A stretch of 34,063 bases of DNA from a virus: IMG/VR virus record IMGVR_UViG_3300006875_000071, positions 1-34,063 of that record; one strand, 5' to 3'. The translations under genes were made by a program, and so were the position numbers. Positions 5,732 through 9,674 of the stretch are shown in pieces. Position 1 is the stretch's first letter. Each line of letters begins with the position of its first letter. The notes under the pieces are model-generated. The model was not told the origin of the DNA, searched no databases, and saw only the letters and a program-made list of their open reading frames with translations.

Positions 5732-7921
5732 TTAGAAAGTAGCAAATCGTTTTCCGATATACCTTGCCTGAGATGATTCTTCATTTCTAACTACAGATCT
5801 AATAAATTGATTGGTAGAAGAGTTGTTGTTAACAGGAGCATTAACAACAGTAGTATTTCCACCAGCCAATTTTCCTTCAGCCATAGCCTGAGCGTCAGCA
5901 TTTGTTTTTGATGCATTGTATATTTTGGCAGAATCTACTTGCACATTACCACCAACTGCAACAAACCTAGTTGCCTCTTCCCACGGAAACTCTTTTAACG
6001 ATCGCATTGTTTCTTTAAGAGTATCACTCTTAATTTCACTAAAAGCCTTTATTCCTTGGCTCAGATCTTTCATACCTGATCCAGCCTTACCGATTCCCTC
6101 ACCATATTCAGAAATCTTTTGTAGCTGCTGGATTGGAGAGTCAGTTCCGATAGTAAGTAATCTTCCAACCAGATTACCAAGTCCAGCAAGTGCTTGACTG
6201 GCGCCAAATGCTGCCATTGCTGCAGCCACCGCACCCAATCCCTTGGCAACACTCCACAAATTATTACCATCAATATTTCCAAGACGTTCGACACCACCGA
6301 CCATGTCGTCAAACCCCTTGCCGATTGCTTGAAGTGCTTCACCTAAAATCCAAATACCAGCACCCATGGCACCAATTCCTGCACCTGCAGCAATCATCAG
6401 TGGAGTAGCTGGACCAAGTAATAGAGATGACGCACCAAGAGCAGCAATTGCTACACCAGCCTTAGCCATTGTTTCCCAGGTTGTATCACCAAATTCTTGT
6501 AGTGCTTTACCAATTACCCATATACTAGCACCCATCGCCGCCAGCCCTGCTGCGCCAGCTAACATTGATGGTAGTATTTTACCAAGTAGTAATCCAGCAG
6601 TTCCAATTCCAACCAAAACAACACCAGCCTTAGTCATTGTTCCCCAGTCAAGTTTTACAAATTCATTAATTGCTTTAGAAGCAACTACCAATGCTCCAGA
6701 TATAGCAATAATTCCAATCGATGCTTTGATCATATCACCCATAGCACCTTTTAGTACTTTTGCTGTAACAACTAAACCACCAAGAACAACTAACCCTTTA
6801 CCGACTTCATCCCAAGCAACTTCTCCCCACGCTTTAAATGCCTTAGAAGCACCAAATAATGACAAAGATAATGCACCTATGCCAACAGCAATTTTCATCA
6901 TATTTTTCATGATGGCATCTCCTTTGTTGCCACCCAAAAGACCACCTAATAATCCTCTCCCCTCACTACTTCCCTCACTACCCTGTTTAGATGATTGTTG
7001 CACCTTTTCAGCAGTTTGAGGGTTTGTATTCTTTTCTATTTTTTCCAACAACTCAGTTTGCGTCTGAATTAGACGTTGATTTTCAATTTGTTGTTCTTCC
7101 ATCTGACCCTGGTCTGCAAAATCTTGAGTTGGTGACTTTTTAGTTGATAATTGTGGTGCATTGGTCATACCGACCAGTTTAGCTCGTTCATCATATTGTT
7201 TATAATCTGCAGCTAGAGCCTCTCTTTTATCTAATAGATCACGCCCCTCTTTGAATTTACCCATGTCAGACTGAGAGATACCAGTCTGTTCCCGCCATGC
7301 TTTGATTTTTTCCTCATTCTTATCCATCTCTTTTCTTGTTTTCTGAGCACTAGAAAAGTCTTTTTTTAATTCTTCTCTGGATTTTTCGGAACCAAGTTTT
7401 TTTTGAGTGTTTATGAATTTTTCTCGTTCTATGGATCTATTAAAGATGCCTGCTATGTTAAAACTTTTTAGAAGAGCGCCACGAATGCCACCTCCGTCAG
7501 TGAAAGAAGTTTTCATTTTTTCTATACCCATTTTAAATCTTTCTAATGGGCTATAAAACACTTTCATACTTTTGGCAATATTTGTAATAGCAAGTGCCTC
7601 TTCAGCACGCAGTCGCATCAATTCTTTTGAGGAAGATAAAATTTGTTTATTTACTTCTAATTGCTTTTTGCTTATTTGTAACTGATCTTTATCAATTTTT
7701 AATTTTTCTTTCATTTCTGGAGTGATAACTTTCACACCATCAGAACTTTCTGACATACCAGGAGCATTAGTTTTAATGCTCCTCTGTTGATTTAGAGACT
7801 TTTGAGCGTCATCCAGAAGTTGCTTAATAGACTTTATATTGTCAAGTTGTTGTAGTTGAGCATCCAATAATTGTTTCATATCGTTGGATGTTACATTCAC
7901 TTGATAAGGTTGCTTTGCCAT
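5732..7921 (-). CDS. gp29: Tail tape measure protein (gp29-like)
   Basis: A 729-residue protein. The first 310 residues are polar and strongly coiled-coil (Gln/Lys/Glu-rich). Residues 335-600 are rich in Ala, Gly, Val and Leu with several membrane-like helices, and a Gly/Asn-rich C-terminus follows. This layout, the size, and the place right after the gp26/gp51 pair fit the tail tape measure, which sets tail length and may be ejected into the host envelope. T4 gp29 has 590 residues. Residues 365-535 contain three copies of a 56-residue repeat, each starting with Trp (W370, W426, W482). ATG at 7921, 5 bases after the gp51 stop, behind an AAAGG site. T4 gp29 similarity is by architecture and context. 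Confidence 0.78.
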   Translation of the reverse strand: MAKQPYQVNVTSNDMKQLLDAQLQQLDNIKSIKQLLDDAQKSLNQQRSIKTNAPGMSESSDGVKVITPEMKEKLKIDKDQLQISKKQLEVNKQILSSSKELMRLRAEEALAITNIAKSMKVFYSPLERFKMGIEKMKTSFTDGGGIRGALLKSFNIAGIFNRSIEREKFINTQKKLGSEKSREELKKDFSSAQKTRKEMDKNEEKIKAWREQTGISQSDMGKFKEGRDLLDKREALAADYKQYDERAKLVGMTNAPQLSTKKSPTQDFADQGQMEEQQIENQRLIQTQTELLEKIEKNTNPQTAEKVQQSSKQGSEGSSEGRGLLGGLLGGNKGDAIMKNMMKIAVGIGALSLSLFGASKAFKAWGEVAWDEVGKGLVVLGGLVVTAKVLKGAMGDMIKASIGIIAISGALVVASKAINEFVKLDWGTMTKAGVVLVGIGTAGLLLGKILPSMLAGAAGLAAMGASIWVIGKALQEFGDTTWETMAKAGVAIAALGASSLLLGPATPLMIAAGAGIGAMGAGIWILGEALQAIGKGFDDMVGGVERLGNIDGNNLWSVAKGLGAVAAAMAAFGASQALAGLGNLVGRLLTIGTDSPIQQLQKISEYGEGIGKAGSGMKDLSQGIKAFSEIKSDTLKETMRSLKEFPWEEATRFVAVGGNVQVDSAKIYNASKTNADAQAMAEGKLAGGNTTVVNAPVNNNSSTNQFIRSVVRNEESSQARYIGKRFATF

Positions 7922-7926
7922 GGGTT

Positions 7927-8076
7927 TTAACCTTTAAAATTTTTGGATTCTATTCGTTTCTTTTCTTCTTCTAGATATTGAATTAACATGAACACATATA
8001 CTTCTCGTTCGAATGGTATCATCTCTTCTAGCTCAGCCAAGGAGTATTTGTGATACTGCATTAGAGCAAAATTCAT
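7927..8076 (-). CDS. gp51: gp51-like baseplate hub assembly protein (probably made by -1 frameshift from gp26)
   Basis: The frame ends with TAA at 7929-7927. The first in-frame ATG (8076) gives only 49 residues (MNFALMQYHKYS...), but the gp51-like pattern starts earlier: ESLENYYK lies directly upstream in the same open frame, with no ATG, GTG or TTG start there. The frame continues without a stop back to 8124, where gp26 has a slippery heptamer. A -1 shift would fuse gp26 residues 1-238 to 65 more residues, a 303-residue product. The body contains SLAELEEMIPFEREVYVFML, followed by a charged helix. In T4, gp51 is needed for hub assembly. Whether a free short form is also made is open. Confidence 0.72.
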   Translation of the reverse strand: MNFALMQYHKYSLAELEEMIPFEREVYVFMLIQYLEEEKKRIESKNFKG

Positions 8077-8114
8077 TTTATAATAGTTCTCTAATGACTC
8101 ATGGCTGAGCAGAA

Positions 8115-8837
8115 CTAGAAAAAACTTTGAATACCTTCTAACACCTTATGGTGGTGTTTGTTACATACTGGACACGTATATTCAATTTCCTTTTTAAGTT
8201 TCGGCATGGTTTCGAAGAATTTTTGAATTCTCATAAACTGATCCGAGGTTAAATTATTCACGAATTGTAGTAATTCATCTTTTGTCTGTTCTTTGGCATA
8301 ATATATCTGTTCACCATCATAGATATAATCAATAGACAACGCCATGATATCAAAAATTTTATCAAAGTCGTCTTCCTTCATTTCTTGTAACTTGTTTAAT
8401 ATATCTACTGTAGGATATTTCATAACAACGCCGACATCATTAAATAAATTTAATTTATTAGTATGATCCTCTGATTTATGAACTTTAATATCATTAATAT
8501 CAATTTTAACTGTAGATTTAGATTTTTCATTATTTTCTCCATGATCTATATCACATGGAAATACTAAATCTATTATCTCCCCAACAGATTTACCACGAAT
8601 TTGTAAAAACATATACTCCAGATCAAATGTGGCTAGTTTATTCACATCAATCTGATCCTGTACGCATGATTTAACTACATTCTTTAATGTATCAATCATA
8701 ACGGTTGCATCCTCAGACTGTTGCGCCAACAACAGAGCTTTTTCTTCCTTAACAAGGAATGGTCGATATTTCACAGATGTTCCGATTGAGGGTACAACCA
8801 TGTTATATGTTGGGGTTGACATCATAGGCAAAGCCAT
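8115..8837 (-). CDS. gp26: Baseplate hub subunit gp26
   Basis: A 240-residue protein (T4 gp26 has 208) of the T4 baseplate protein family. It starts with a Pro/Thr-rich segment, then the typical KYRPFLVKEEKALL block (about residues 23-36), VVKSCV, and LEYMFLQIRGKSVGE (about 73-87). The C-terminus carries a probable zinc site, CPVC at 222-225 followed by HHH at 228-230, and ends LEGIQSFF. It takes part in assembly of the central hub. In lambda-type tails the gene before the tape measure encodes a chaperone made in two forms, and here the last two codons form a frameshift site into gp51. It follows gene 16 by 4 bases. Confidence 0.88.
   Translation of the reverse strand: MALPMMSTPTYNMVVPSIGTSVKYRPFLVKEEKALLLAQQSEDATVMIDTLKNVVKSCVQDQIDVNKLATFDLEYMFLQIRGKSVGEIIDLVFPCDIDHGENNEKSKSTVKIDINDIKVHKSEDHTNKLNLFNDVGVVMKYPTVDILNKLQEMKEDDFDKIFDIMALSIDYIYDGEQIYYAKEQTKDELLQFVNNLTSDQFMRIQKFFETMPKLKKEIEYTCPVCNKHHHKVLEGIQSFF
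8118..8124 (-). promoter_or_regulatory. Programmed -1 ribosomal frameshift site
   Basis: On the minus strand gene 26 reads CAA AGT TTT TTC TAG. The last seven bases before the stop form T TTT TTC, a perfect X XXY YYZ slippery heptamer in the gp26 frame (8124-8118), followed at once by the TAG at 8117-8115. Slipping back one base gives TTT TTT CTA GTT and continues into gp51. Downstream, a short hairpin (CTCA 8109-8106, loop GCCA, TGAG 8101-8098, flanked by a G-T wobble) starts 7-8 bases after the heptamer. It is nested in a TAGTTCT/AGAACTA pairing (8117-8111 with 8090-8084). Confidence 0.75.
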
Positions 8838-8841
8838 AATT

Positions 8842-9255
8842 TTATTCTCCTTTAGTCATATTATTAAGCATTTTGCTCAATTCAGCGGTGCTACCAACAA
8901 AGATAGCGTTATTATTAGTCACTTCTTTTTTAGAAACATCTTTTGGATTGTCCAATTTTTGTTTCTGTTGATGCAAATCAAGTAGCTGCTGATTCACGTC
9001 AGCAAGCTGTTTCATAAGATTTCCAACAACTTCAAATGCACGAGGATGTTCTGATTGATGTGCAACGTCTAATGCTTTCATCAATGCAGACTGCCCCTGC
9101 TGCAAAATTAAACGAAGATTATTTCGAGTGATCTCGTAGTCATCTTCAATTTTATTCGTTTTATCATTGATGATTTCACCATCAATTGTTACCACTTCAG
9201 TGCCTCGCATCGGTGCAATTCCGAACTCAGCAGACAACGATTCATCAATGTTCAT
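8842..9255 (-). CDS. gp16: Terminase small subunit gp16
   Basis: A 137-residue protein (T4 gp16 has 164). The core DYEITRNNLRLILQQGQSALMKAL (about residues 39-62) and HPRAFEVVGNLMKQLADVNQQLLDLH (about 69-94) are the helical hairpin typical of T4-type small terminases, and NNAIFVGSTAELSKML near the C-terminus is a second family hallmark. The small terminase forms a ring that regulates the large-subunit ATPase/nuclease gp17 during headful packaging. gp17 is not next to it here; instead the gene sits between an SNase-like nuclease gene (overlapping it by one base, TAATG) and gene 26. Confidence 0.9.
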   Translation of the reverse strand: MNIDESLSAEFGIAPMRGTEVVTIDGEIINDKTNKIEDDYEITRNNLRLILQQGQSALMKALDVAHQSEHPRAFEVVGNLMKQLADVNQQLLDLHQQKQKLDNPKDVSKKEVTNNNAIFVGSTAELSKMLNNMTKGE

Positions 9256-9674
9256 TATAACTCACCACGTTCTATTAAGATTTTTTTATTAATTTGATGT
9301 TGCTCTTGAGTTAATTCTTTGTTTTCACCTTTATATGGAACAGCGTAATTATTAGCGATTAGCCATTCATTCACTCTTGTTCCATCTTCAAGGATAAATA
9401 CACCAAGAATTCTTCCAAATTTATCATCATTATTATCAGACTTTTGCGTTTCAATAATCTGCCAAGATCCAGTTGGAAGTTTTTCTGCCAACTTCTTTTT
9501 AGAAAGTAATCCTCTTGGCTTTTCTTCCTTATTTGATGTTCTTGATTCCGGTGTATCTACACCAGCCATACGAACTCTCTGATTGGCTAAAATGATATTA
9601 AACCCCAAATCTAGGTCGATATCAACAGTGTCGCCATCCAACACTTTATTAATTTTGCATTTATATTGATACAT
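9255..9674 (-). CDS. SNase-like (thermonuclease family) nuclease
   Basis: A 139-residue protein with the full staphylococcal-nuclease active-site set: DGDT at residues 13-16, RMAGVDTPE at 35-43 (Arg35, Asp40, Glu43), and KFGR with Arg88. It should be a calcium-dependent phosphodiesterase cutting DNA or RNA. No signal peptide is present, so unlike secreted bacterial nucleases it would act inside the infected cell or be packaged in the virion. It is translationally coupled (TAATG) to the small terminase gene, which suggests a role linked to packaging, host DNA degradation or DNA-end processing. An AATAAATA promoter-like element lies 22 bases upstream of the start. Confidence 0.92.
   Translation of the reverse strand: MYQYKCKINKVLDGDTVDIDLDLGFNIILANQRVRMAGVDTPESRTSNKEEKPRGLLSKKKLAEKLPTGSWQIIETQKSDNNDDKFGRILGVFILEDGTRVNEWLIANNYAVPYKGENKELTQEQHQINKKILIERGEL

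Follow-up and report, generated by a model that had tools for sequence, protein, structure and literature searches.

On the minus strand of the window, the whole 34,063-nucleotide stretch of viral DNA analysed here, an IMG/VR contig of an uncultivated T4-like phage, gene 26 (8115..8837) encodes a protein of 240 amino acids, the putative short chaperone form (TAC-N), which matches PF12322 with an E value of 2.6e-63 and phrog_150 with 4.7e-67; PF12322 is present in a single copy in the whole 34-kb record. According to both the sequence and the list of open reading frames (ORFs) the gene ends in CAA AGT TTT TTC TAG, so that the TAG stop (8117-8115) is adjoined by the slippery heptamer T_TTT_TTC (8118..8124), which lies in the gp26 frame and on the same strand. 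A Shine–Dalgarno (SD)-like GAAGG (8134..8138, minus strand) is located nine bases 5' of the heptamer. Past the heptamer the -1 frame is open as far as a stop at 7929-7927, and the resulting extension (7927..8121, minus strand; gp51 or TAC-C, 64 amino acids and a stop) matches the gp51 family phrog_634 (6e-26) as well as columns 232-276 of phrog_150, directly after the columns covered by gp26. The predicted gp26-51 fusion comprises 303 amino acids and contains ...IQSFFLVLLSHESLENYYK...; the ESLENYYK segment of the extension is preceded by no ATG, GTG or TTG, and the first ATG comes after it. Five bases separate the gp51 stop from the start, at 7921, of the tape-measure protein gene (5732..7921, minus strand, 729 amino acids), the ORF of which is a partial match to phrog_4372, tail length tape measure (4e-13). 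A preliminary description of this DNA had pointed out the in-frame heptamer beside the stop, the open -1 frame with its gp51-like product, the conserved part that begins ahead of any start codon, the five-base spacing to the tape measure and the 303-residue translation, and all of these are borne out by the sequence and the ORFs. The closest DNA relatives of the window in the phage collection compared are cyanophages. Elsewhere in the window, a Staphylococcal nuclease-like gene (PF00565) occupies positions 9255-9674, flanked by a tail-tube gene and a small-terminase-like gene.

The arrangement was compared across cultured phages and about 260 viral contigs, the gp26 loci of which were searched by single-protein queries, and clustering of the loci at 80% identity yielded 90 clusters. 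The extension was found at every locus that runs far enough beyond gp26, and relative to gp26 it is in the -1 frame at 270 of the 271 related loci; the only locus outside this frame (L108) lacks the stretch that leads from the slip to ELEEMIPFER, probably owing to a deletion or an assembly collapse. Alignment of the junction over T4-like phages, which the preliminary description had recommended, finds a heptamer of the form T_TTT_TT[CTG] kept at 248 of the 270 -1-frame loci and in 85 of the 90 clusters, and both the heptamer and the -1 relation are conserved in the Kyanoviridae, KVP40, Aeh1 and the T4-like phages of Sinorhizobium and Rhizobium. The first phenylalanine codon of the site is TTT in 85/85 heptamer clusters compared to 616 of 985 gp26 phenylalanine codons elsewhere (p about 5e-18), although these 85 clusters were selected for having the heptamer and the fair figure is 85/90. 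Across this set the conservation of the heptamer and of the -1 relation is far beyond chance. At six loci (L184, L210, L229, L230, L232 and L244) the gp26 stop comes nine codons after the heptamer, and proximity of the stop is therefore not essential to the arrangement.

Further signals surround the slip site. Most of the 85 heptamer clusters have an SD-like GGAGG or GAGG, with its end about 10 bases 5' of the heptamer, and the GAAGG of the window is a weaker version of it. The conserved glutamate position at this element is encoded by GAG and GAA at a ratio of 47:15 versus 536:1325 elsewhere (Fisher 8e-14), and the predicted pairing with the anti-SD sequence amounts to -6.4 kcal/mol versus -4.1 kcal/mol in synonymous shuffles, an excess that control positions do not display. 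Synonymous selection on the element is thus evident (Fisher 8e-14, Wilcoxon 2e-11) and, judged from these sequence statistics, the element is selected beyond the requirements of the protein it encodes. It is a probable 5' stimulator of the slip, resembling the SD-like stimulator that lies upstream in the dnaX frameshift. On the 3' side, folding is somewhat stronger across the clusters, with a mean z of -1.3 to -1.6, than in controls, with -0.04 to -0.42. The hairpin that had been noticed downstream in the window (8083..8117, minus strand; outer stem TAGTTCT...AGAACTA, inner stem CTCA...TGAG) can indeed form, folding at -10.4 kcal/mol, but a search for conserved pairs in 16 close relatives found none; a conserved downstream hairpin is accordingly rejected for the window's clade and the role of the structure is doubtful. 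The CPVC...HHH zinc-like motif, which the preliminary description had noted just before the shift, has been discarded as part of the mechanism since many cyanophage gp26 proteins lack it.

The reading that we favour, with a probability of roughly 0.93, is that two chaperone forms, short and long, are produced from one gene by means of a -1 ribosomal slip. Most ribosomes would stop at the TAG codon and release gp26, the 240-amino-acid short form, while at T_TTT_TTC a minority would move back by one base, probably aided by the upstream SD-like sequence, and synthesise the 303-amino-acid gp26-51 as the long form. On the model of lambda G/GT, the short and the long form alike would coat the tape measure that is encoded next to them, and the C-terminal part of the long form would recruit the tail-tube subunits. 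We infer that slippage takes place, how often it does so and that the products act as chaperones in the window's phage; tape-measure binding and a role in tail assembly are what lambda and T4 genetics would lead one to expect.

Most database annotations, including those of S-PM2, P-SSM2, KVP40 and others, draw gp51 as a gene apart, which would make it a separate small protein with its own or stop-coupled initiation just past the gp26 stop. Some relatives do possess an ATG that overlaps or closely follows this stop (at +2 or +5 in about 26 T6 clusters), and wherever an ATG, GTG or TTG occurs soon past the slip, separate or coupled initiation is possible. However, the first 12 codons of the extension are devoid of ATG, GTG and TTG in 38 of the 85 heptamer clusters, or 89 of 248 loci, the window likewise lacking a start before the conserved part and ACG-2014d and ACG-2014e being examples among cultured relatives, and at these start-less loci codons 2-11 past the slip have a pN/pS of 0.38 in the -1 frame as opposed to 1.4 and 1.9 in the other frames. 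A start-less stretch under -1-frame selection implies -1-frame translation that does not depend on a usual start codon, which rules out separate initiation as the general mechanism. Moreover, a separate gp51 provides no reason for the heptamer being kept, and gp51 of T4 is a continuous protein in which a gp26-like part is followed by the extension; independent synthesis of gp51 is improbable on these grounds.

The frame change could alternatively take place during transcription, the fused message resulting from slippage of the RNA polymerase, not of the ribosome, at the T run. A run of six T is indeed present, but it is short for transcript slippage and is kept in phase with the codons read by the ribosome; together with the selected SD-like element upstream, which fits a ribosomal event, this leaves polymerase slippage very improbable. 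That the contig is metagenomic is the only support for tracing the two frames to a chance frameshift mutation or a sequencing error, and this explanation, refuted by the recurrence of the same frame break at the same place in 270/271 loci including those of cultured phages, can safely be dismissed. Ribosomal slippage, in contrast to a separate gp51, accords with the start-less relatives, and the lambda G/GT-type interpretation put forward in the preliminary description has come through all of the comparative tests proposed there, with T4 gp51 representing a natural in-frame fusion.

T4 and T4-type phages serve as a natural control. The genes 26 and 51 of T4 give rise to the same pair of products as predicted for the window, gp26 being the short and gp51 the long form, but they are separate and divergent, there is no slippery run in gp26 and frameshifting of T4 itself at gene 26 is rejected. 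PF12322 covers residues 1-201 of T4 gp51 (3.9e-52) and is followed by the same extension as the -1 tail, T4 gp51 being a gp26 paralogue that carries this tail; T4 gp26 and gp51 have both been described as hub assembly chaperones (PMC3004832). All eight T4-type phages examined (T4 and seven others) have two PF12322 genes, one for a long gp51 and one, free of slippery runs, for a short gp26, whereas a single PF12322 gene was found in 16 other phages, in Aeh1 and in one further large virus record. The in silico fusions of 90/90 clusters are hit by a profile built from T4-type gp51, at a median of 57 bits; gp26 by itself or joined to a shuffled tail reaches 18 bits. The junction between fusion and profile is free of gaps in 88 of the 90 clusters and of both gaps and insertions in 87, the window's fusion aligning ungapped across the slip; without exception, profile column 200-201 is where the first -1 residue is placed.

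In an unrooted tree the T4-type gp26 and gp51 proteins are split from the frameshift-type proteins (100/99). With the frameshift spread over several families and the two-gene form over one part of the Straboviridae, a duplication that replaced the frameshift is the simpler history, and we infer from this distribution and the unrooted tree that frameshifting in the T4 lineage would have given way to duplication. RB43 and Klebsiella phage RCIP0002 (L283 and L285) have a tandem 51-26-25 order on one strand, unlike the divergent order of T4, and their gp26 is short (184-185 amino acids).

Structural modelling provides a hint of a chaperone fold in gp26. For the gp26 model (pLDDT 88), ranks 2-3 are taken by 2OB9, the tail assembly chaperone of HK97, with a probability of 0.80 but a weak E value of 0.95. 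There is no chaperone fold among the matches listed for the T4-type gp51 model (pLDDT 94), and sequence searches of the PDB found no homologue.

Frameshifting is reportedly kept in several T4-like groups, and the abstract by Vladimirov and co-workers is said to name T4 genes 26 and 51. In T4-like phages the gp26/gp51 genes were identified as those of the tail assembly chaperones (TAC-N/TAC-NC) by Vladimirov, Gautam and Davidson (Virology 2022, doi 10.1016/j.virol.2021.11.003). A paper on phage Adele (PMC12846349) refers to the same work for the poly-T slip signals of T4-like TAC-N genes, and PMC10885494 reports separate short and fused long genes in some T4-like phages; in an earlier review T4 was still listed as an exception (PMC5009743). 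The published T4-like TAC-N/TAC-NC pair consists of the same genes in the same short/long arrangement as in the window, of which only the contig is new. Since the chaperone identity and the poly-T slip had already been published for T4-like phages, the preliminary description was right about something already known, and the locus is very probably a well-supported further example of a published T4-like frameshift and not a discovery. Many more sequences and quantitative controls now back the way in which T4-like phages form both versions of the chaperone thought to prepare the tail ruler. The upstream SD-like element and the branch without a heptamer are less documented than the frameshift itself.

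Among other known systems, lambda G/GT has G_GGA_AAG as its slip site, as opposed to the poly-T heptamer of the window, and gp26 of the window differs further in having no lambda-type chaperone family match among the matches listed. The two systems are alike in that a -1 slip near the end of the chaperone gene is situated directly before the tape measure, with the T domain as the extension (PMC5009743). Phage Adele and its kin (Vandenendeviridae/Andersonviridae) belong to other phage families than the T4-like window and, likewise, shift to the -1 frame at a T-rich GTTTTT before the tape measure (PMC12846349).

The heptamer is missing in 5/90 clusters. Kuttervirus and related Ackermannviridae, Vibrio K444 and Cygsa01 have [AC]TT TTY NNN TAA in its place, the extension being present throughout (loci L012, L018 and L257-L274 of the Ackermannviridae, L014 and L017). 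The Mooltan-type site reads ATT TTC ATT TAA. An ATG overlaps the stop (TAATG) in three of the five heptamer-less clusters, where coupling is therefore possible, and there is none in the other two. We tentatively envisage three routes to the two chaperone forms, a scheme that is plausible but for the present doubtful as a whole: a poly-T -1 slip with an internal SD-like element in the window and most relatives, gene duplication in T4, and either an unusual slippage on a single phenylalanine codon or stop–start coupling in the Ackermannviridae, K444 and Cygsa01. It is possible that neither the third of these routes nor the internal SD element has been described before.

The frameshift arrangement also has consequences for existing annotations. 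Aeh1 alone has been reported to lack gp51, and cyanophage gp51 to correspond to about 20% of full-length T4 gp51 (PMC3037559). In Aeh1 (L287, AY266303 118400-120200) the sequence GAT TTT TTC GAC TGA is followed by an unannotated -1 tail, which explains the former observation, and the resemblance of cyanophage gp51 to only 20% of the T4 protein is explained by the frameshift arrangement itself. In many records gp51 is entered as a gene of its own or left out where the joined frameshift product would be right; the tails of AS-zj, Ci1 and the Ackermannviridae are unannotated or partly annotated.
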